NCBI GenBank assembly: GCA_031287855.1
Contig: JAITSL010000042.1
Location: 1 to 44,953, forward strand
Direction of reading: 5' to 3'
DNA from: Candidatus Endomicrobiellum roisinitermitis
GTDB taxonomy: Bacteria > Elusimicrobiota > Endomicrobiia > Endomicrobiales > Endomicrobiaceae
Length of the DNA stretch: 44,953 nt
Below are positions 2,330 to 42,301 of the stretch, in pieces; within the stretch, counting starts at the first letter, position 1, and every line of letters starts with the position of its first letter. Position numbers and translations under genes: made by a program. Below the pieces are notes generated by a model. The model saw only the letters and a program-made list of their open reading frames with translations. It ran no database searches and was not told the origin of the DNA.

Positions 2330-2965
2330 TTACTTTGCCCTTTGTGGATCAAGGGTAACGGTAGTAGGCGTATCCGGGCCAGGTGAAGGAGGGTACAGTA
2401 TCAGGCACACCAAGGTACACGGCATACAGATTAGCATTAGGAAACTCATATCACTTATAAACCCTCCCCATCTCACACGCCGCATAAACATCAGCATCAA
2501 TGACAACACTGCTATTAAAAAATTGTCCTGACACAGATCTAGTTTGATTGGTGTAGTTTAGAACCTTAACGGAGTTACCTCAAAGAGCGTTCTATGAGCA
2601 ATAAACATTTAATATTTCAAATTAGCTCTGTCTGAAGCAAAATTCATTTATGTCTTTCTTGTCTTATCATTTTGCAAGTTTGCTAATTTGTTTAAAAGTT
2701 TACTTGCGATTGCTCTAGTAACATAGATAAGGCTCTAAACTAGACCAGCCACCGCCCCATAGTCATTAAGCAAATACACATAAAACCCCCCCTACAGCTT
2801 ACTTCAACACTACTACTACTGTTAATAGTAGAACTTAAAACATTCTCTACAGACACAACTCCCTTCCATCTAATTGCATCACTTAACACAGACCATCCGG
2901 CATAGATATTTACATCATTGACACTAGGATTAAGACCTACATTTAGTAGCGTTAATAAGTTACAG
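2330..2965 (-). pseudogene. Decayed surface-protein gene interrupted by an inverted-repeat element
   Basis: The minus strand reads as protein-like fragments in shifting frames: VNDVNIYAGWSVLSDAIRW, then SSTINSSSSVEV near 2800, then after the element at 2548-2748 SVVIDADVYAACEMG, PNANLYAVYLGVP and finally a proline-rich PSPGPDTPTTVTLDPQ before a stop at 2330. A VTLDPQ start after a proline-rich linker resembles the beginning of Listeria-Bacteroides (InlB B-type) repeats of secreted proteins. The original product was therefore perhaps a secreted or surface-anchored protein. A related remnant lies at 15810-16065. Several frameshifts and one stop are present. The family assignment is tentative; the existence of decayed coding sequence is better supported. 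Confidence 0.5.
2548..2748. repeat. Inverted-repeat (MITE-like) element, copy A
   Basis: The ends GGTGTAGTTTAGAACC (2550-2565) and GGCTCTAAACTAGACC (2731-2746) are inverted repeats of each other at 14 of 16 positions. Both ends and the internal blocks (CCTCAAAGA, ATGAGCAA, TTAATATT, CTTATCATTTTGCAAG) are shared with copy B at 18542-18868, which has about 180 extra internal bases. No transposase frame is present, so it would need to be mobilised in trans. It splits the decayed surface-protein gene at 2330-2965. No clear target-site duplication was found. Confidence 0.7.
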
Positions 2966-2975
2966 AAATACTGAA

Positions 2976-3025
2976 AAACAGCAACACCTACTTAAACAAA
3001 TTTGCTTAAGTAGGTGTTGCTGTTT
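2976..3025 (-). terminator. Rho-independent terminator of the gyrA transcript
   Basis: Arms 2976-2995 and 3006-3025 are perfect 20-base inverted repeats (AAACAGCAACACCTACTTAA on the left), and the loop itself contains the palindrome CAAATTTG. Read on the minus strand the hairpin is followed by TTTTTC. It lies 74 bases beyond the gyrA stop. Confidence 0.85.
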
Positions 3026-3098
3026 AAATGCTCCCTGTACGTTTTTCTTCAACAGTTATCAACTCTTTTTAAAACCAAAACTTCAACTTTTGCCTATC

Positions 3099-5639
3099 TT
3101 ATTTACTATCAGAAACTGACTTTGTTTCCACTGCGTTCTGCGCCTCTTGATTGTTTTCATCTTTTACTACAGAAGCAAGCGCTGCAACTTTATCGCTTTG
3201 GGCAAGCTTAACAAGTTTTACACCTTGAGTATTTCTACCTATTATAGAAATACTATTAACTCTCAGCCTAATTGTAATGCCGTCTTTTGTCATTATCATC
3301 ACTTCTTCATCAGCATTGGCCTTTTTTATGCCCACAACATCGCCATTCCTTTCTGTAGCTTGCATGTTTATTACACCATGCCCAGATCTTTTCTGTAAAC
3401 GATACTTACCGACTTCTGTTCTCTTACCATACCCATTCTCAGACACAGACAAGAAAATATCTTCCGGGGCAAGCACTTCCATACCTACAACTTCATCGTC
3501 TTTCTCTAAAGATATTCCTCTTACACCCCTACCGTTTCTCCCTATTGCGCGCACATCACTTTCTTTAAACCTTATAGCTATACCTTTTTTTGTTGCAATG
3601 ATAACCTCAGGTTTTTTTTCTATAGCTTTTACTTGCGCCAAAATATCACCATCTTCCAACTTAATTGCTATTATGCCACCTTTTCTTGGGTTTTTAAATT
3701 CTTCTAATGCAATCTTCTTAATTATACCTTTCCTCGTACACATAAGCAGATACTCATCTTTAATATCTCTTGCATTAAACGACCTTATAGGTATTGCTGC
3801 TGTTATTTTCTCTTCAGTCCCCTGCAATTGTAAAAGGTTCACTATAGCTTTACCTTTAGAAACTCTAGCACCCTCAGGGATTTCGTAAACCCTTATCCAG
3901 TAAAGCCTACCCCTAGTAGTGAAGAATAACATGTAAGAATGAGAATTTGTGATAAACAAACTTTCCACAAAGTCCTCTTCTTTAGTATTCATAGCAGTTA
4001 TTCCTCGCCCTCCTCTATGTTGAGCTTTATATGTATCTAAAGGAATGCGCTTGATATACCCAGAATGAGACATTGTCACTGCAACATCCTCTTCTTGAAT
4101 CAAATCTTCGATGTTAAAATCTGCCTCTGCAGCTTGAATTTGTGTTTTTCTTTTATCGGCATACTCTTTTTTAATTTCAAGAACTTCTTCTTTGATTATT
4201 GCTAAAACTTTTTTAGGGTCTGCTAAAATAGAACGAAGCTGCTCTATAAGTTTTATTTTTTCTAAATACTCGTCTTCTACTTCCTGTCGTTTTAGGCCAG
4301 TCAACTGACGAATCTTCATCTCCAAAATAGCTTCAGATTGCGCTTTTGTTAAATGAAATTTAGACATCAACACAGTTCTTGCCGCCTCTTCTTCACGCGA
4401 CTCTTTCATTATTTTAATAACAACGTCAATATTATCTATTGCTATTTTTAAACCTTCCAAAATATGCGCTCTAATTTCAGCTTTTTTTAAGTCAAACTGT
4501 GTTCTTCTTACTATAACAACTTTCCTATGCTCAATATGGTGCACCAAAATTTCTTTAATGTTCATAACTTTTGGCCTATTATTTACAAGAGCAAGCATTA
4601 TAACGCCAAAAGAAGTTTGCATTTGTGTATGTTTATAAAGTTGGTTTAACACAACTTGAGCATTTGCATCACGTTTAATCTCTATAACTACTCTTATACC
4701 TTCTCTGTCAGACTCATCTCGCAAGTCAGAAATACCGTCTATCTTTTTGTCTTTCACTAAATCTGCAATAGAAGTTATAAGGTTTGTTTTATTTACTTGG
4801 TATGGAATTTCTTTTACAATTATAGCTTCTCTAAAACTTTTTAATTCTTCGATTTCGGTTTTAGCTCTTATTTTTACAGAACCTCTACCTTTTTCCATAT
4901 ACTCTTTAATTCCGCCTTTCCCCAAAATAATAGCTCCTGTGGGAAAGTCAGGTCCTTTAATACACCTAGCTATTTCGCTAACTGGAAGTTCTGGATCGCC
5001 TATTAAAGCAACCAAAGCATCGCAAGTCTCTACTAAATTGTGTGTAGGTATATTAGTTGCCATACCTACAGCCATACCTGAAGACCCGTTAATTAAAAGG
5101 CTTGGTAATTTTGTTGGTAAAATTAAAGGTTCTTTTAAAGAGCCGTCATAGTTTGGTATAAAATCCACAGTGTTTTTATCTAAATCAGCAAGCATTTCGT
5201 CTGTAATTTTATCCATTCTAACTTCGGTATAACGCATAGCTGCCGCAAAGTCACCATCTATGCTACCAAAGTTACCCTGTCCATCTATCATGGGATATCT
5301 TAACGAAAAGTCTTGTGCCATCCTTACAACCGCACCATAAACTGCAGAGTCACCATGTGGATGATATTTACCTAAAACGTCACCAACAACTCTTGCAGAT
5401 TTTTTGTATGCCGTGTTATGCTTTAATCCCATTTCCTTCATCGCATAAAGTATTCTTCTATGCACAGGCTTTAGTCCATCCCTAACGTCCGGCAAAGCTC
5501 TTCCTACAATTACGCTCATAGCGTAATCTATATAAGAGGTCTTCATTTCATCTTCAATGTTTCTTGGAACAATGTTTGCTGTAACAACTCCAAGAGAATC
5601 CGAGTCTTGCAACTTTTTTGTGTCTTTATCTTTTGCCAT
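3099..5639 (-). CDS. gyrA: DNA gyrase subunit A
   Basis: This is the DNA breakage-reunion subunit of gyrase, which forms an A2B2 complex with GyrB to introduce negative supercoils. The 846-residue length is normal. The sequence shows the [20 protein letters not shown] start of the winged-helix domain, the catalytic Tyr137 in RYTEVRM, the [10 protein letters not shown] quinolone-pocket segment at about 93-102 and a GyrA box (QHRGGRGI) in the C-terminal beta-pinwheel, followed by an acidic low-complexity tail. The residue equivalent to E. coli Asp87 is Gly102. An AGAGGA ribosome-binding site precedes the ATG. It lies 73 bases downstream of gyrB and is probably cotranscribed with it. The strong hairpin at 2976-3025 ends the transcript. 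Confidence 0.98.
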
Positions 5640-5712: not shown

Positions 5713-8253
<2,541 letters not shown>

Positions 8254-13914: not shown

Positions 13915-14196
13915 TCTTTAATATTGAAATGGAGTTTTTACGAAAAGACAAGAAAGACATAAATGAATTTTGCTTTAAACAATGAAAGGGGTCTGTCTAA
14001 AAACCTTGCTGTTGTGTTAAAAAATTTGTGTTTATAACACTATAAAACCTTGCATTGTCACAAAATTCACAGTAATTATACGCATTCATAACGCTAAGCT
14101 TGCTATAATTAACACCGACATTAGTACTGCACCTGCAGCAGCAAACGCGCTGTGCTTTACAAGATTAATAGTTTGTCCTGCTATACTTATACTTTA
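13915..14196 (-). repeat. Inverted-repeat element copy C (degenerate) plus adjoining repeat
   Basis: Read on the minus strand, 13915-14095 shares the interior of copy B at 18542-18868: an AATGC-TATAATT-CTGTGAATTTT block, CAATGCAAGG, ATAAACAC and AAGGTTTTTAG-CAG. It also shares the CAAAATTCATTTATGTCTTT stretch of copy A. The terminal inverted repeats are missing. Bases 14122-14196 match 1325-1397. The gap 13882-14261 holds no gene. Confidence 0.6.
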
Positions 14197-18541: not shown

Positions 18542-18868
18542 TTGGTCTAGTTTATAACCTTCTTGTAGTTGCCTCAAAGAACGGTTTATGAGCAACAAAG
18601 GTTTAATATTGCAGAAGGGATATGTCTAAAAACCCTAATGCTTATAATTGCTGTGAATTTTTTGGCAATGCAAGGCAAAAAATACAGGGTTTATTGTGTC
18701 ATAAACACGAGTTTTTAACGCAGCAGTGTAGAAAAAGGCATAGTAGGATATGCATTAAGGTTTTTAGGCAGCCTCAATTCATTATATGGAGTAAAATACA
18801 TATAAGTCTTTTTTGTCTTATCATTTTGCAAGTTTGCTAATTTGATTAAATGTTATAAACTAGACCAA
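18542..18868. repeat. Inverted-repeat (MITE-like) element, copy B
   Basis: TTGGTCTAGTTTATAAC (18542-18558) and its exact inverted copy (18852-18868) form perfect 17-base terminal inverted repeats of a 327-base unit. Copy A at 2548-2748 shares the ends and flanking interior, and copy C at 13915-14095 shares the middle. An open frame of 72 codons inside (18622-18840) has stops in copy C, so it is unlikely to be a gene. No target-site duplication was seen. The element lies between the mnmE start and the 18932 ATPase. Confidence 0.75.
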
Positions 18869-24301: not shown

Positions 24302-24409
24302 AAAAGAATTCTAACAAAAAGTTGATTATAAGATCAAAAAAAGATAAAATTATCTTTATAAATAACACTTGAAATTGCTAAAATAATATAAATTTAATAT
24401 GGGAAGAAA

Positions 24410-25507
24410 ATGTCAAAGGTAAAAAATCTTATTGTTGGGTGTGGCTTTTCAGGGGTGGCACTAGCTCGGAAAATAGCGCAAGAGCGTAAAGAAAAAGTAG
24501 TTATCATAGATATTAAAGACCATATAGCAGGTAACTGTTATGATTATAGGGACAGCAACGGCATTTGTGTTCACAAATACGGTACGCATATATTCCATAC
24601 AAACTTAAAGCCAGTTTGGGATTTTGTTAGCAGATTTACTAAGGGGTATCCTTATCAACACAAAGTAAAGGGACTAGTAGACGGACAACTTGTCCCAATT
24701 TCATTTAACTTAAATTCTTTACATCAAGTTTTTCCTAAATCGTTAGCAAACAAAATAGAGTTGTGTCTTCTGGAAAAGTTTGGATTTAATAAAAAAGTCC
24801 CTATTTTTAGAATTGCGTAAAGCAAACGATAAAGATTTAACTTTTTTAGCAGAATATATTTATCAAAAAATTTTCTTAGAATACACTTTAAAGCAATGAG
24901 GAATGAAGCCAGAAGATATGGATCTTGCAGTTTCTGGGGAGAAGGCCTATTTATATTAGTCGTGATGACAGATACTTTCAAGACAAATATCAAGGTATCC
25001 CTATAGAAGGGTATACAGGGCTTGTGTTAAAAATGTTAGATCATCCAAACATAGAAATTAAATTTTCTACAGTATTTTCAAAAGAAATGGAATATGAAAG
25101 GTTGTTTTATAGTGGACCAATTGATGAGTTTTTTGAGTACAGAGTTGCCATATCGCAGAATAAAGCTAGATTTTTTGGAATTTCCATATTCTAAATTTCA
25201 AGAAGCTGCAGTTATAAATTATCCATGCAATTATGATTTTACGTGTATAGGTGAGTACAAATGGTTTTTAAATAATAAGTCAGACAAAACGGTTGTATCA
25301 TATGAATATCCAGAAGAATTTAAGCTAGGCAAAAGTGAAAGATATTATCCAATAGTAAAAGAAGAAAGCCAAACACTTTACAACAAATATCTTGAGTTAG
25401 CTAAAGGAACACCAAATATATATTTTTTGGGAAGGCTTGGCGACTATAAATATTATGATATGGATAAAGCTGTGGAGCGGGCATTTAATTTGTTTGAAGA
25501 AATTTGA
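24410..25507 (+). pseudogene. glf: UDP-galactopyranose mutase, inactivated
   Basis: Glf converts UDP-galactopyranose to UDP-galactofuranose. The N-terminus is intact with the FAD-binding LIVGCGFSGVALARKIA and KYGTHIFHT. The frame then shifts near 24800 in a T run, restoring LRKANDKDLTFLAEYIYQ. An in-frame TGA at the expected Trp of LKQWG stops it near 24900. A third break in a GGGG run near 24940 leads to YISRDDRYFQDKYQGIP, and a fourth near 25145 leads to ELPYRRIKLDFLEF and the C-terminal FLGRLGDYKYYDMD. At least three frameshifts and one nonsense codon make it non-functional. It is the first gene of the plus-strand polysaccharide locus. Loss of galactofuranose from the glycan is inferred. 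Confidence 0.93.
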
Positions 25508-25649
25508 ATAAAATGGCGTTACAACTTTATTTAATCAGGGTTAGGATAAGAGCAAAGTTTTTCTTCAATTGTTTGTTGATTTAAAAGAGTTAAAATGACT
25601 CAGACAAATAATTATAAACAGTATAAAAACAATATTGGTAATAAAAAAG

Positions 25650-26693
25650 ATGAAGCAAAATCCTAAAGTATCAATTATAATCCCGATTTATAATACAGAA
25701 AAATATTTACGAAAATGTTTAAACAGTGTTATAAACCAAACATTAAAAGATATAGAAATTATATGTATTAATGATTGTTCGTTAGACAAATCTGCTGACG
25801 TGTTAAGCGAATATGCACAAAAAGATCAAAGAATTAAAGTTATCAACAATGTAAAAAACGAAGGGTTATCTTTTACGCGGAATGTTGGCCTGGACATTGC
25901 AAAAGGCGAATATATAGCATTTGTTGATAGTGATGATTATATAAAACTTAAAGCGTACGAGTTAATGTATGATAAGGCAAAGGCTGCAAATGCAGATGTA
26001 GTTTGTGGAAAAGTCCAATGTGTACTGGAAACTCAAGATATAGCAAATCAAGAGCTGACTTCAATATTAAAGTCAAAGCAATCTTATTTTGACAAGAGTA
26101 ATTTAAGGGAAGGACTTTATAAAATTCCAAATGATATTAACACCATGATAGCAGTTGTATGGAATAAATTGTATAAAAAGACTATAGTTGACAAATATCA
26201 TCTGCGTTTTCCTGAAGGACTAATAAGAGAAGATGAAGCTTGGCTTTGGTATTACATGTCAAAAATTAAAAGTGTTTACTATATAGAAGATGTAGTATAC
26301 AGCTATCTTATAAGACAAGATAGTATTATAAATAATATAAGTAAAGACAATAGCAAGATTGTTGATTTGATATATATACAAGATTGCATAATAGAACATT
26401 TAAAAGAGTATAAACTTTTTAAAAAGTATAAAAAATATATTGTTGGTATGTTTAGGAGAAATGTTGAAACCTTATATAACGAAGCAAAAAATAAGAATCT
26501 TATTTACAAAGAATCTAATAAAGTTATAAAGAAGTATGGGTTAAGTATGGACGTAAACTATGGCAATGTAGAGAAGATATATGTAAAATTTTTAGGCATT
26601 AGGGTGTTAAAGATTGTAAAAAGTGATTATAAAATAAAAGTATATTTTTTAAGTTTTATTCCTTTTGGTACAATAGTGTACAATAATAAGTAA
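25650..26693 (+). CDS. Family 2 glycosyltransferase
   Basis: This is a cytoplasmic GT-A fold glycosyltransferase of the CAZy GT2 type. The sequence shows VSIIIPIYNTEKYLRKCLNS at the start, ICINDCSLDKS (the first nucleotide-binding Asp), NEGLSFTRNVGL and the metal-binding VDSDDY at about 92-97, then a catalytic IREDEAW near 193-199. The C-terminus carries the short FIPFG tail seen in many lipopolysaccharide-type transferases. The ATG at 25650 was preferred to the TTG at 25635. The donor and acceptor sugars cannot be told. It lies between broken glf and the GT-HAD fusion. Confidence 0.9.
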   Translation: MKQNPKVSIIIPIYNTEKYLRKCLNSVINQTLKDIEIICINDCSLDKSADVLSEYAQKDQRIKVINNVKNEGLSFTRNVGLDIAKGEYIAFVDSDDYIKLKAYELMYDKAKAANADVVCGKVQCVLETQDIANQELTSILKSKQSYFDKSNLREGLYKIPNDINTMIAVVWNKLYKKTIVDKYHLRFPEGLIREDEAWLWYYMSKIKSVYYIEDVVYSYLIRQDSIINNISKDNSKIVDLIYIQDCIIEHLKEYKLFKKYKKYIVGMFRRNVETLYNEAKNKNLIYKESNKVIKKYGLSMDVNYGNVEKIYVKFLGIRVLKIVKSDYKIKVYFLSFIPFGTIVYNNK

Positions 26694-26710
26694 TATTCAA
26701 CTATTAAATG

Positions 26711-26760
26711 GCCTACTCCCTCACTCTAGGAAGTAGAGTGTTGTATAAAAAAGAGTAGGC
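26711..26760 (+). other. Nested stem-loop between two glycosyltransferase genes
   Basis: GCCTACTC (26711-26718) pairs with GAGTAGGC (26753-26760), and inside it CACTCT (26722-26727) pairs with AGAGTG (26735-26740). A second weaker hairpin follows near 26790-26815. No T run follows, so it is not a standard terminator; an RNA element or an attenuator is possible. The rest of 26694-26890 holds no gene. Confidence 0.5.
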
Positions 26761-26890
26761 TTAACAACCATTCATTATATGAAGTTCCTTTTATTATAGG
26801 GACTTTCAGGCATTGTTAATGGCTATATACATACTATTGATACTAAAAATATAATTCTAGAAGATGGCAATTTAAGATGAAGGACGTTAA

Positions 26891-29800
26891 ATGTATATGA
26901 AAACTTATGAAACTCCCATAATTTCGGTGATAGTTCCCTTTTACAATACTTCAGATAAATTTTTGAAAAGATGTTTGGATAGTTTGTTAAATCAAACATT
27001 AAAAGAAATAGAAATTATTTGTGTAAATGATGGTTCTACTAACAACAGTGTGAGAGTTGTTAAACAATATTCAAAAGAAAAGACCAATATTGTTTTTGTA
27101 GACCATAAAACTAATATTGGTCTTTTCCATGCAAGGCTAAGCGGAATAAAACATGCAAAGGGTAAGTATATTGCTTTTTTAGATAGCGATGACTATGTTT
27201 GTGTAGATTATTACCGTTTGTCAGTTGCTGCTATAGTCAAGCATAATGCTGATGTTGCCGTTAATAGTATTGTTGAAGATTATGGTAAAGAAAAAATAAT
27301 ACACAATTTTGCGGTAAATGATATGGAATTTAACACTTTAGAAGGTAGCCAAATTCTAAATAGCTTCTTTAAGCAAGAAGGGTTAAATTATCATTGGAGT
27401 GTGTTATGTAATAAAGTTTTTAAAAAAGATTTATGGAACAAGGCTCTCCCTTATTTGTTGTTACAAGACAAACACCTTACAATGTGTGAAGATATTGTTT
27501 TTTCGTCAATTTTGTTATCATTTGCTGATAGAATGTTGTACGTAAAAAACAATGTTTATTTTTATACTAAACATGGAACTAATAGTGTACGTGATAACAA
27601 AACTTATAAACAGCAGATAAAAAATATTGATGATATAACTACAACTTTTGGTTTTGTAGAAGACTTTATTAATAAACAAAAGCTACATAAGAAGTATCAG
27701 CATAATTTTCAAAATTGGAAACTACTATATCGTCAAATTTATATGTATAAAGTCAAAGTTGCAAGATATAGCAAGAGAGAGGAAAACAAGTTATATGAAA
27801 AGATAGATTTGTTTTGTTCTCTAGATAAAGAAATTGCAAATAACGGTTACTTTTATAGTGTTTCTACTCCTTGGAATGATAATTATGAAAAAATAAAATG
27901 TACTATTTGTGATCCTAAAATTAAGGTTATTAGTTTTGATGTTTTTGATACTCTTGTAGTACGCCCCTTTTTAGAACCAATGGATTTATTTAGGATGTTG
28001 GATGATGATTTTCGTTCTTTGTATGACAAGAGCACTTTTATTGATTTTTCTGCTTTGCGTATTGAAAGTGAGAAGAAAACACGAGAAAAGGTTTGTAAAA
28101 GTCCTAAAGTAGAAGATATAACTTTAGATGAGATTTATAATACATTACAAGAAGAGTATCGTGTTTCTAAAAACATTGTAGATAGGATGAAGCAGTTAGA
28201 GATTGATGCAGAGTTCCGTTTTTGTAGTGCGCGCAAAGCAGCTTTTGAGCTATATGAAATGGCTGTATATCTTGGTAAAGAAATAATATGTATTTCTGAT
28301 ATGTATCTTCCAGAAGTTGTGATTAGTAAAATTTTAGAGGGTAATGGATACACGCAAATTAAAAAAATTTATGTTTCTTCTCAAGTGCGTCTTAACAAAA
28401 TGAATAGTTTATTTCATTTTGTTGTAAATGACCTAGGTTTAAGACCAACAGAAATCTTACATATCGGAGATAATGAAGAGGCAGACTACCTTAGAGCAAA
28501 GAAGGAAGGATTAAAATCTGTTTATTTCCCTAAAACAAAAGATGTCTTTTTTAATTCAAAAACAAGTGGTTCTTTAGGGGAAATTTTTTCTAATCAGTTA
28601 CCATTTTGGCAAATGAATAAATGTGCTCTTAATTTTATTGGTATGCGAATTTTTGTTGCTTTAATTGCAAATAATTACTTTGACAACCCTTTTCGTACGT
28701 TTAACAAGAATACAGACTTTAATCATGATCCAAGTTTTGTTGGTTACAGTGCTTTGGGTATGTATTTATTTGGAATTGTTATGTGGCTCATTGATAATTT
28801 TATGGAGAAAAAATACGATAAAATATTATTTGTTGCGCGTGATGGTTATATGCCTATGGAAGTTTATAAGATTTTAAAATGTTTTTATTCAGGCCTTCCA
28901 GATGAAGAATATTTTTACATTTCAAGGCAGTCTTCAATTCCTATGTCTGTGCACACTAAATTGGACTTTTATAAATTACATGAATTAATGATATTTTACA
29001 ATAAAACTCCAGTACAGTTAGTGCCTTATCTGAAAAAAGTTTTTAACGTTGATGAGCAAAAATTATATGATGTGTGTAAAACATCTGGTTTTGATGCAAA
29101 TACTATCATAACTAACATATCTCAATGGCACACATTTATCAATATTTGTATTGATAACTTTTATAATGAGCATGAACATAAAGAAAAGCTAGACAAATTA
29201 AAGGAGTATTTCATACAAATTTTTTCAGGTGATATATGCATGTTTGATGTTGGATATTCTGCAAAACCTGAAATGTATTTAGGGAAGCTTTGTAATAAGT
29301 CCATTGATACCTATTTTGTCAATGCAGATATTGCTGGTGGCGCACAAAAACATCTAAACATAAGTAACTCTAAGCTATGTACTTTTTATGATTATATTCC
29401 TAGTATATATGGTTATATAGAAGAAATATTTTTTTCGAAAATGGAAGGGTCTTGTGCAGCCTATAATGTATCTCATGAAGTAGTTACAACAATGTTTGAA
29501 AAATATATGATTTCTTATCCAGAATTTTTTGTTATTAATAAAGGACAGCAATCCGCATTGTCCTTTATAAAAGATTTAACAAGTGTTTTTGGAGATAAAA
29601 TTCACAAATCGAGTCTCCCAAAATATTATTCCTCTCTATTTTTTAACATTTTGTTTTTTGCAGCAAAAAAAGAAGATAAGAAGATGTTTAATTGTTTCGA
29701 TTTTGAGGATGGTATTGCAAGTGGAGGTTTTAATTTATTATACAAATGGAATAGTAATTTAAAAGCTTCTCATCAAAAATCTATGCAAGAGTTATATTCT

Positions 29801-29932
29801 TTTGCTGAAAAAAAACCTTTAGATTACAAAGTTAAGAAATTTTTTATCCATTTATTATGTAGTACAATTCTCTTGAAGAAATTAAGGAAGACTTTAAGAC
29901 GAAGACTAATAAATTTTATTGATAGGATTTAA
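26891..29932 (+). CDS. Glycosyltransferase fused to HAD-like hydrolase (COG5610-like)
   Basis: This is a 1013-residue, apparently two-enzyme protein. Residues 1-300 are a GT2 glycosyltransferase (VIVPFYNTSDKFLKRCLDSL, VNDGSTNNS, the metal-binding DSDD at 98-101, and an acidic MCEDIVFS near 196-203). Residues 340-560 form a HAD-like fold: DVFDT (350-354), a CISDMYLP segment near 458-465 and GDNEEAD (526-532). Residues 580-1000 are an extra domain with the VARDGY motif (648-653), as in COG5610-type proteins. In the first HAD motif the residue two after the nucleophile Asp350 is Phe, where classical phosphatases have Asp, so phosphatase activity is uncertain. An AAGGA site precedes the ATG. It is probably a cytoplasmic glycan enzyme; its reaction is unknown. 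Confidence 0.88.
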   Translation: MYMKTYETPIISVIVPFYNTSDKFLKRCLDSLLNQTLKEIEIICVNDGSTNNSVRVVKQYSKEKTNIVFVDHKTNIGLFHARLSGIKHAKGKYIAFLDSDDYVCVDYYRLSVAAIVKHNADVAVNSIVEDYGKEKIIHNFAVNDMEFNTLEGSQILNSFFKQEGLNYHWSVLCNKVFKKDLWNKALPYLLLQDKHLTMCEDIVFSSILLSFADRMLYVKNNVYFYTKHGTNSVRDNKTYKQQIKNIDDITTTFGFVEDFINKQKLHKKYQHNFQNWKLLYRQIYMYKVKVARYSKREENKLYEKIDLFCSLDKEIANNGYFYSVSTPWNDNYEKIKCTICDPKIKVISFDVFDTLVVRPFLEPMDLFRMLDDDFRSLYDKSTFIDFSALRIESEKKTREKVCKSPKVEDITLDEIYNTLQEEYRVSKNIVDRMKQLEIDAEFRFCSARKAAFELYEMAVYLGKEIICISDMYLPEVVISKILEGNGYTQIKKIYVSSQVRLNKMNSLFHFVVNDLGLRPTEILHIGDNEEADYLRAKKEGLKSVYFPKTKDVFFNSKTSGSLGEIFSNQLPFWQMNKCALNFIGMRIFVALIANNYFDNPFRTFNKNTDFNHDPSFVGYSALGMYLFGIVMWLIDNFMEKKYDKILFVARDGYMPMEVYKILKCFYSGLPDEEYFYISRQSSIPMSVHTKLDFYKLHELMIFYNKTPVQLVPYLKKVFNVDEQKLYDVCKTSGFDANTIITNISQWHTFINICIDNFYNEHEHKEKLDKLKEYFIQIFSGDICMFDVGYSAKPEMYLGKLCNKSIDTYFVNADIAGGAQKHLNISNSKLCTFYDYIPSIYGYIEEIFFSKMEGSCAAYNVSHEVVTTMFEKYMISYPEFFVINKGQQSALSFIKDLTSVFGDKIHKSSLPKYYSSLFFNILFFAAKKEDKKMFNCFDFEDGIASGGFNLLYKWNSNLKASHQKSMQELYSFAEKKPLDYKVKKFFIHLLCSTILLKKLRKTLRRRLINFIDRI

Positions 29933-34861: not shown

Positions 34862-36553
34862 ATGTTAAGGAAATTAGTAACTCCTAATATGACTACTCAA
34901 AAAGATTATTTGGGACCATATAATTTTTTTAATTTTTGTAGAGAAAACAAACTGTTGTTAATCTCAACATTAGTAGCAATGGGTTTTACTTATGGAATTC
35001 TATTATTTCATACTCCTATAGGAATTGATACAGAATATGCAATGAGTCTTTATAACAATAGGATAGCTAGATGGTATTCACAAGGGGGGCGGTTTGGTAT
35101 TGACCTTCTTAACTTGTTATTTTTTATAAAAGAGTTTAATCCCTATACATGTGCTTTTTTTGCATTGAATTTCATTTACTTGGGTACAATAGCATGGTGT
35201 TATTTAATTTCTATATTTTCTAAAGAAAAATTGAACGCATATTTAATTCCGTTTGCACTACTTTTTATAACATCACCCGTATGGACAGAACAATTTTACT
35301 TTTTAATGATGGCAGCAGAAACATCTCTTGTTGTTTTATTATGTCCTATAACAATTTTATTTTTATATAGAGGATGCTTAGAAAATAAAACTTACTTGAT
35401 AATTTTAAGTGTAATTTTAACAGTATTGATTATTTCTATATATCAAACAAGTATTGCTATGTTGTTAAGTGGGTTTGGTATCTGTTTTATTTTATTTGAA
35501 GACAGTTCAAATTACGATGCCAGATATTATTACATTTTAGCTGTAAAAATATTTTTTGCAATAATTTTTTCTGGAGTTGTTTATTGTTTAATAGTTAAAA
35601 TACTCACAGGTCAAATTATATCTTCTTACCACAAGAGTGACTATATTTTATGGACGAAGCAAAATTTTATTGATAGTATGTATAATATAGTGCTAATTGC
35701 GAAAAGTATATTTATTGACACATTTATACAATTTGTAAAGGAAAAACAGTTTAAACATACATACGGGAGTGCGTTATTGATGCCGATGACGCTATTATAT
35801 ATAATTCAAATATGCAGAAATACTTTTTTCTTTTCTACACAAAAAAGAGCTATGTATATTTTTGCTGGATTTAGTATCCCATTTTGTATTATATTAATTC
35901 CTGTACTTGGAGCGACTGTACCGCCTATAAGAGCGATGTATGTACTTCCACTGGTTATTTCATTTTTGCCGTTATATTTGATAAATAAAAGGGATAAAAA
36001 AATTCTTAAACAGTTTTTAGCAGGTATTATGTTGATATTTGCATTGTATCAGTCACAGATATCGACTCAATTGCAATATTCTGATTGGCAGCGATACAAT
36101 AGGGATGTAAAGATTGCATACGATATAGATAGAATGATTCAAGATAAGATAAATAATAAAAAGAATGTGCGTATTGCATTAGTTGGAGGATATACTATAG
36201 ACAACCAATTTAACGATAATTTTTTACAAGGAGCAGTTATTGGAAGCTCTTTATTTGAATTTGCTGATAGATGGGTAGATAGCTGGAACGAGTCTACACG
36301 GAGAGTAGCATGTTTTATGAGGACTTTAGGTATAAAATATGATATTGTTAATGATAAAAAGAAAATGGATGAGGCGATTATAATGGCCCAAGATATGCCT
36401 TGTTATCCTGCTAATGGGTGTGTTAGAGAATATAACGGAATAGTTATTATAAATTTATCTGTAAAACAATCACTTTATTGTAATAAAGTGATAGAAGAAC
36501 ATAAAAAAAATACTATCTCTCACGCACTTAAAACTGGGGAAATTAATAGATAG
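34862..36553 (+). CDS. GtrII-like membrane glycosyltransferase
   Basis: GtrII-type enzymes sit in the inner membrane and transfer a sugar from undecaprenyl phosphate to a growing glycan outside the cell. The 563-residue protein has about ten membrane helices, an early loop (GIDTEYAMSLYNNRIARWYSQ) with the acidic and arginine residues expected near the active site, and a soluble C-terminal tail. The family match is by pattern (Glucos_trans_II). The start is uncertain: ATG at 34862 and 34889 both lack a clear ribosome-binding site. It follows a decayed GtrB-like gene, so its lipid-linked donor may now come from the GtrB-like protein at 41357. Confidence 0.75.
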   Translation: MLRKLVTPNMTTQKDYLGPYNFFNFCRENKLLLISTLVAMGFTYGILLFHTPIGIDTEYAMSLYNNRIARWYSQGGRFGIDLLNLLFFIKEFNPYTCAFFALNFIYLGTIAWCYLISIFSKEKLNAYLIPFALLFITSPVWTEQFYFLMMAAETSLVVLLCPITILFLYRGCLENKTYLIILSVILTVLIISIYQTSIAMLLSGFGICFILFEDSSNYDARYYYILAVKIFFAIIFSGVVYCLIVKILTGQIISSYHKSDYILWTKQNFIDSMYNIVLIAKSIFIDTFIQFVKEKQFKHTYGSALLMPMTLLYIIQICRNTFFFSTQKRAMYIFAGFSIPFCIILIPVLGATVPPIRAMYVLPLVISFLPLYLINKRDKKILKQFLAGIMLIFALYQSQISTQLQYSDWQRYNRDVKIAYDIDRMIQDKINNKKNVRIALVGGYTIDNQFNDNFLQGAVIGSSLFEFADRWVDSWNESTRRVACFMRTLGIKYDIVNDKKKMDEAIIMAQDMPCYPANGCVREYNGIVIINLSVKQSLYCNKVIEEHKKNTISHALKTGEINR

Positions 36554-41356: not shown

Positions 41357-42301
41357 ATGAAAAAAATGTTGTCATTTGTAATACCATGCTATGGCTCGGA
41401 ATTGACGATAGACAGTGTGATTTCCGAGATTAACTCGATTGTTTCTGAAAGGCCAGAATATTCCTACGAGATAATATGTGTTAATGATTGCTCTCCTGAC
41501 AATGTCATTGAACGACTTAAAGGTCTGGTATCGCGACAAAGTAATGTTATAGTGGTTGATTTAGCGAAAAATAGCGGGAAACATGCTGCTGTTATGGCAG
41601 GATACTCTCAAGTTTCAGGTGATTACATAATTAATCTTGACGATGATGGTCAGTGTCCTATGGACAGGCTGTGGAGTTTAATAGCGGAACTTGAAAATGG
41701 CAGAGATGTGATTTTTGCACAATATTATATAAAGAAACAGTCAGCATTTAAAAATTTTGGAAGCAACATAAACAATTATATGTCTAGAATATTTTTTAAC
41801 AAGCCAAAAAATTTAAGATTTGAGAACTTTTCTGCGGCAAAACGATTTATAATAAATGAAATATTAAAGTACAAAAACCCATTTCCATACTTGGAGGGAC
41901 TGTATCTTCGCACAACAAGGAATATTTCTGCTATAAAAATGGAACAACGAGAGAGAAGTTCCGGTGCTGGTATGTTTTCTTTCAGAAAATCGATTTCGCT
42001 TTGGTTAAATGGTTTTACAGCATTTTCTGTAAAACCATTAGAAATAGCTATCATTATTGGGTTCTTTGTTTCGTTTAGCGGATTCTTTTTTGCGTTATTT
42101 CTTATAATAAGAAGATTTTTTATGTCATATTTAATACCAGGGTACTCTTCCTTGATGGCAGCTTTTTTATTTTTAAGCGGTGTTATTATGATAATGCTGG
42201 GTTTAATTGGTGAGTATATTGGGAGAATGTATATTAGTATAAATAGTAGTCCTCAATATGTTATACGGAATGTGTATAGATCGGAAGAAGTCAGGAGATA
42301 A
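41357..42301 (+). CDS. GtrB-like polyprenyl-phosphate glycosyltransferase
   Basis: This 314-residue protein has a cytoplasmic GT2 domain (SFVIPCYGSE, NDCSPDN, NLDDDGQCP as the metal-binding loop) followed by two C-terminal membrane helices at about 229-251 and 263-287. That layout is typical of GtrB, ArnC and CsbB enzymes, which put a sugar on undecaprenyl phosphate for use outside the membrane. Its stop overlaps the ATG at 42301, and the acetyltransferase start at 42305 follows. The neighbours WecE, WecD and FdtA suggest the loaded sugar is an acetamido-dideoxyhexose. A GtrII-like gene is at 43634. No GtrA flippase was seen. Confidence 0.88.
   Translation: MKKMLSFVIPCYGSELTIDSVISEINSIVSERPEYSYEIICVNDCSPDNVIERLKGLVSRQSNVIVVDLAKNSGKHAAVMAGYSQVSGDYIINLDDDGQCPMDRLWSLIAELENGRDVIFAQYYIKKQSAFKNFGSNINNYMSRIFFNKPKNLRFENFSAAKRFIINEILKYKNPFPYLEGLYLRTTRNISAIKMEQRERSSGAGMFSFRKSISLWLNGFTAFSVKPLEIAIIIGFFVSFSGFFFALFLIIRRFFMSYLIPGYSSLMAAFLFLSGVIMIMLGLIGEYIGRMYISINSSPQYVIRNVYRSEEVRR

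Follow-up and report, generated by a model that had tools for sequence, protein, structure and literature searches.

A GT2, HAD phosphatase and PRPP-dependent ribosyltransferase fusion as a candidate three-step enzyme of surface-polysaccharide synthesis in a gut Elusimicrobiota bacterium

Based on sequence searches, an alignment of homologs and a predicted structure, we propose that a 1013-residue protein of Candidatus Endomicrobiellum roisinitermitis (Elusimicrobiota) is very probably a three-part enzyme of a surface-polysaccharide locus, which would add a ribose, remove its phosphate and then add the next sugar. The gene occupies positions 26891..29932 on the forward strand of contig JAITSL010000042.1 (assembly GCA_031287855.1), whose 44,953 analyzed nucleotides we refer to as the window. 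It forms a single intact open reading frame with an ATG start, and AAGGA at 26880..26884 on the same strand, 6 nt 5' of the ATG, reads as a probable ribosome-binding site. In the proposed sequence of events a glycan phosphoribosyltransferase (gPRT) in the C-terminal half would transfer Ribf-5-P from PRPP onto the glycan. The central HAD-fold phosphoribosyl phosphatase (PRP) would then strip the 5-phosphate via an aspartyl-phosphate on D350, freeing the ribose for extension, and the N-terminal GT2 module would draw on a nucleotide donor to attach the next sugar, with the new ribose as the most likely acceptor. The first two of these steps are predicted with the greatest confidence, given both homology and residue agreement with characterized enzymes. 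An earlier note on this DNA had suggested coupled transfer and processing of a phosphate-containing sugar, and such a coupling would match what has been described for characterized relatives (PMC10299916, PMC12096443, PMC12887879).

The GT2 module, of the GT-A type, spans residues about 9-310 (26915..27820, +) and carries the motifs NDGS at 46-49, DSDD at 98-101 and ED at 200-201, at positions that are conserved among the homologs. Its assignment draws on both a DXD-type motif, with D98 of DSDD present in 38 of 39 ungapped rows of the homolog alignment, and a match to the Pfam model PF00535 over residues 12-138 (E-value 4.1e-32; 111.9 bits against a cut-off of 23.3). The PRP module follows at residues about 340-550 (27908..28540, +), with D350 as the predicted nucleophile, F352 and D353 beside it, and S469, K503, D527 and D532 further along, while the gPRT module covers residues about 575-960 (28613..29770, +) and contains R650-D651 (within ARDGY), S678-R679, D786 and E845. 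The motif positions given in the earlier note (DSDD 98-101, DVFDT 350-354, GDNEEAD 526-532 and VARDGY 648-653) all hold in the 1013-residue protein, as does its view of a genuine three-part fusion, the modules lying in one intact frame and recurring in the same order in other genomes. The chain ends in a basic helix at residues 984-1012 (29840..29926, +), a low-confidence part of the model with a net charge of +7 across 18 residues and a possible membrane or partner contact; it may anchor the enzyme at the membrane, as has been proposed for Bcs3 and KrkA.

Neither of the two ribofuranosyl domains reaches the cut-off of any Pfam or NCBIfam model. The HAD match lies below threshold in Pfam, the NCBIfam model TIGR02253 (HAD) aligns with residues 343-551 at 3e-9, under its own cut-off, and the C-terminal stretch of about 450 residues matches no model in either collection. 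We therefore identified this last part from sequence and fold matches in the PDB. When the whole protein was compared with PDB entries by sequence alone, its residues 341-692 matched Bcs3, the Haemophilus influenzae type b capsule polymerase (1.9e-18), and residues 338-1013 alone as the query gave a similar value (1.3e-18). With a profile built from eight homologs the match to Bcs3 reached 1.6e-63 and that to 7SHG, a Thermobacillus composti entry named "Ribofuranosyl transferase", 2.2e-36, both covering the HAD and C-terminal parts almost completely. An AlphaFold2 model computed from 44 sequences, one plasmid-collection row having been left out, attained a mean pLDDT of 89.6 and a pTM of 0.89. 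When it was used as a Foldseek query, Bcs3 (8.9e-23) and 7SHG (9.1e-19) filled ranks 1-8 among PDB entries, followed by GT2 enzymes matching the N-terminal module, namely 5hea, Listeria monocytogenes RmlT and Staphylococcus aureus TarP and TarS. Over the whole chain the TM-scores stay modest (0.40), owing to a different first module and a different arrangement of the domains.

Taken from these sequence and fold matches, the HAD and ARDGY domains together are the known PRPP-dependent ribofuranosyltransferase pair, PRP plus gPRT, the latter resembling 7SHG and the CriT ribosyltransferase domain of Bcs3 in profile and Foldseek comparisons alike. What had been read as an extra ARDGY domain is accordingly no add-on: it corresponds to the PRPP-using transferase, which would act before the HAD domain in the order of reactions. 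The statement that the role of COG5610-like domains in glycan synthesis is not settled is likewise outdated. A literature search for COG5610 itself found no paper.

The PRPP-using domain also bears on a different scheme, in which the C-terminal domain would charge polyprenyl phosphate with PRPP, in the manner of the three-component Citrobacter ORF15 pathway. In that protein, too, a PRP domain is linked to a transferase that uses PRPP (PMC11127046), and the window encodes both a GtrII-like membrane protein (34862-36553) and a GT2 resembling polyprenyl-phosphate sugar transferases (41357-42301). However, the transferase of ORF15 is an integral membrane protein of the UbiA type and does not resemble gPRT (PMC11127046), whereas the domain at hand matches the soluble gPRT in both sequence and fold; we rejected this route on the fold and regard it as extremely improbable.

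The central domain requires closer consideration, since F352 stands in place of the second Asp of the DXD motif I and the canonical signature of HAD phosphohydrolases is thus absent. For this reason the earlier note had supposed that the domain might bind a phosphorylated sugar rather than cleave it, in which case the HAD would be a non-catalytic binding domain and the added sugar would stay phosphorylated. Yet the alignment shows FDIFDT at the nucleophile loop of both the CrpP phosphatase domain of Bcs3 and 7SHG, and CrpP, which keeps only the first Asp of DXD, nevertheless displays phosphatase activity (PMC10299916), a role also documented for the PRP family elsewhere (PMC12096443, PMC11127046). 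The families that share this Phe dephosphorylate ribose (PMC10299916, PMC12096443, PMC11127046), and the window protein retains D350 together with S469 of motif II, K503 of motif III and D527 and D532 of motif IV. We consequently rejected the binding-domain reading on the comparison with Bcs3 and 7SHG and hold it to be very unlikely; by sequence, the Phe is a trait of the PRP family and not a loss in this protein. FDxFDT is present at all 80 of the homologous genome loci, a count that is partly circular in that one of the two search patterns contained the motif, so that the independent evidence comes from Bcs3, 7SHG and the eight homologs found by whole-protein searches. The structure prediction, in which a collapsed HAD pocket would have counted against the earlier note's assignment, gave no refutation, the HAD region being modeled at a pLDDT of about 88-98, although this figure conveys confidence in the model and not the geometry of the pocket.

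Agreement with Bcs3 extends to individual residues of both active sites. The residues named for that enzyme are D386 and K548 in the phosphatase and R679, D680, S707, R708, R712, E818 and E874 in the ribosyltransferase (PMC10299916), and the offset in its chain numbering was verified before mapping. In the PRP module, D386, S513, K548, D573 and D578 of CrpP align with D350, S469, K503, D527 and D532; D350, opposite the Bcs3 nucleophile, is invariant in 44 sequences. In the gPRT module, R679/D680, S707/R708, E818 and E874 align with R650/D651, S678/R679, D786 and E845. The mapped columns are invariant or nearly so among the 44 sequences, with S678 kept in 40 and E845 in 43, D651 in every one, and Asp in all 44 rows at the position of D786. 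The counterpart of Bcs3 E818 is Asp both here and in 7SHG and is still acidic; the acidic pair that holds the ribose of PRPP is accordingly present (D651 and D786, for D680 and E818 of Bcs3), as are the phosphate contacts and proposed base (R650, S678, R679 and E845). Only R712 of Bcs3, a contact of the 5-phosphate, has no conserved equivalent, its place being taken by Ile in a plain alignment of residues 338-1013. In light of this correspondence we posit that R650 and D651 of the RDG loop, S678-R679 and D786 would hold PRPP, with E845 as the likely base.

A single chain of the order transferase, PRP, gPRT and C-terminal helices is already known from the ribosyltransferases Bcs3 (PMC10299916), Cj1432 (PMC12096443) and KrkA (PMC12887879). 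Bcs3 (PDB 8a0c, 8a0m, 9h50; PMC10299916) shares with the window protein the succession of CrpP, a HAD phosphatase, and CriT, a PRPP ribosyltransferase, as well as the DxFDT loop, the RDG and SR motifs, equivalents of the catalytic Glu and an N-terminal transferase for the other residue on the same chain. It differs in having a TagF-like GT-B N-terminal module for ribitol phosphate, an SH3b domain and a C-terminal helical bundle, whereas the window protein begins with a GT2 (GT-A) module and no SH3b domain was found in it. Cj1432 of Campylobacter jejuni (1031 aa; PMC12096443, PMC11800397), which we liken on its published description, has a similar length and the same order of modules, a glycosyltransferase, a HAD phosphatase, a PRPP ribosyltransferase and C-terminal helices, for which three consecutive reactions have been demonstrated (PMC12096443); it begins, however, with a GT4 GlcA transferase. 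KrkA of Escherichia coli K13 (1113 aa; PMC12887879) shares the N-terminal transferase, the PRP/gPRT pair and a C-terminal region that is likely membrane-associated, but the enzyme at its N-terminus is a Kdo transferase of family GT140. The PRP plus gPRT core is also shared by 7SHG and the Klebsiella pneumoniae O4 and O7 ribofuranosyltransferases (Kelly et al. 2022, as described in papers that cite it), which lack a fused N-terminal nucleotide-sugar transferase. The ribose-adding machinery is already known from other bacteria (2022-2026), and it is the GT2 module and the Elusimicrobiota host that set this protein apart; a literature search, which reached the founding paper of Kelly et al. 2022 through citing papers, found no description of the GT2 version of the fusion.

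The N-terminal enzyme extends the newly added ribose in Bcs3, Cj1432 and KrkA (PMC10299916, PMC12096443, PMC12887879), and by analogy with these three we consider that the acceptor of the GT2 module is probably the ribose just added. Alternatively, with the ribofuranosyl part acting as described, the GT2 might work earlier and make the acceptor of the ribose, or might add a side branch. We think this less likely, albeit a serious possibility: the ribofuranosyltransferase of K. pneumoniae O4 and O7 works alongside separate hexosyltransferases, so that the glycan and not the fusion sets the order (PMC11231755), and the window holds two other GT2 genes; against this, the N-terminal transferase acts on the new ribose in all three characterized single-chain fusions. 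Moreover, both orders alternate in any repeating polymer, and the difference matters for the acceptor only.

As to the donor, dTDP-L-rhamnose is a guess that we regard as rather doubtful, made because rmlA, rmlB, rmlC and rmlD all occur in the same locus. The other genes of the locus encode a WecE-like transaminase, a WecD-like acyltransferase, the GtrII-like membrane protein and the two further GT2 enzymes, and a PRPP synthase is found elsewhere in the genome (a frame of 314 aa, 3.8e-120). Comparison lends the rhamnose guess no support, there being no rml genes near most of the homologous fusions. Among the neighbors of the 80 homologous loci we found no consistent partner corresponding to the rml and glf genes of the window: glf adjoins four fusions, and rml genes lie near few loci, with no close relative among these. 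In the window itself glf, coding for UDP-galactopyranose mutase (24400-25510, +), is broken, with its pieces in different frames and stops between them, and lies directly upstream of the GT2 genes. Separately, three stretches of about 100-300 bp (window 2541-2747, 13945-14084 and 18542-18854) all match positions 6539-6902 of locus L012, from the sibling genome discussed below, and look like an interspersed repeat of the genus.

A search for the same fusion elsewhere, as the earlier note had advised, showed it to be widespread, with a GT2 match in the same frame at 43 of the 80 homologous loci of other genomes, from Bacillota, Spirochaetota, Kiritimatiellota, Thermodesulfobacteriota and Pseudomonadota. 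Given this recurrence, the fusion is neither a chance event nor the assembly artefact that the note had named as a reason for doubt. Other loci carry different N-terminal modules, such as an RgpF-type or FrhB-like domain; in one of them (L050, 4729-7881) a ferredoxin/FrhB-like domain replaces the classical transferase at the N-terminus of a PRP-gPRT protein. In one close relative (L018) the gene adjoins an ABC-2 transporter, an O-antigen ligase-like protein and several glycosyltransferases. Beside another GT2-PRP-gPRT fusion, L041 encodes at 2917-4956 a methyltransferase with a long coiled coil behind it, an arrangement that recalls the "ruler" proteins by which chains are terminated in ABC-transporter O-antigen systems. 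Identical PRP-gPRT proteins occur in a Clostridia MAG, Phocaeicola vulgatus and P. sartorii (L088, L089 and L090), reflecting either gene exchange among gut bacteria in the recent past or contamination of the MAG by a foreign contig. The viral contigs searched held no relatives of the protein.

Within Elusimicrobiota, only 10 of 320 genomes gave any match, mostly over the HAD part and the beginning of the domain after it. A tree of 83 sequences places the window gene in a starred cluster that otherwise consists entirely of sequences from gut Bacillota, which suggests that it was probably acquired horizontally by its Elusimicrobiota host. In the sibling genome G030 the flanking blocks are 89-94% identical, window 24351-29714 is absent and only the last ~220 bases of the three-module gene remain. 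Set against window 24351-29932, the corresponding segment (L012, G030:C47, 2388-2973) lacks about 5.4 kb, comprising the broken glf, the first GT2 gene and most of the three-module gene, and has about 400 bp of other sequence plus the 3' remnant. Its absence there marks the gene as accessory, lost or replaced in that genome, as is expected of a surface-glycan determinant.

Tentatively, GT2-PRP-gPRT fusions could represent a common class of single-chain polymerases making [hexose-Ribf]n polymers in gut bacteria of many phyla, and such a class would, with the same reserve, couple the chemistry of PRPP to that of an inverting GT-A enzyme, a pairing absent from the literature consulted. More generally, the Phe that follows the HAD nucleophile identifies a family of working rather than dead phosphatases, a distinction missed by readers of sequence and by annotation pipelines. 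For the uncultured gut Elusimicrobiota host we predict that it should make a surface glycan containing beta-ribofuranose, and the same prediction would apply to the numerous GT2-containing relatives in gut Bacillota.
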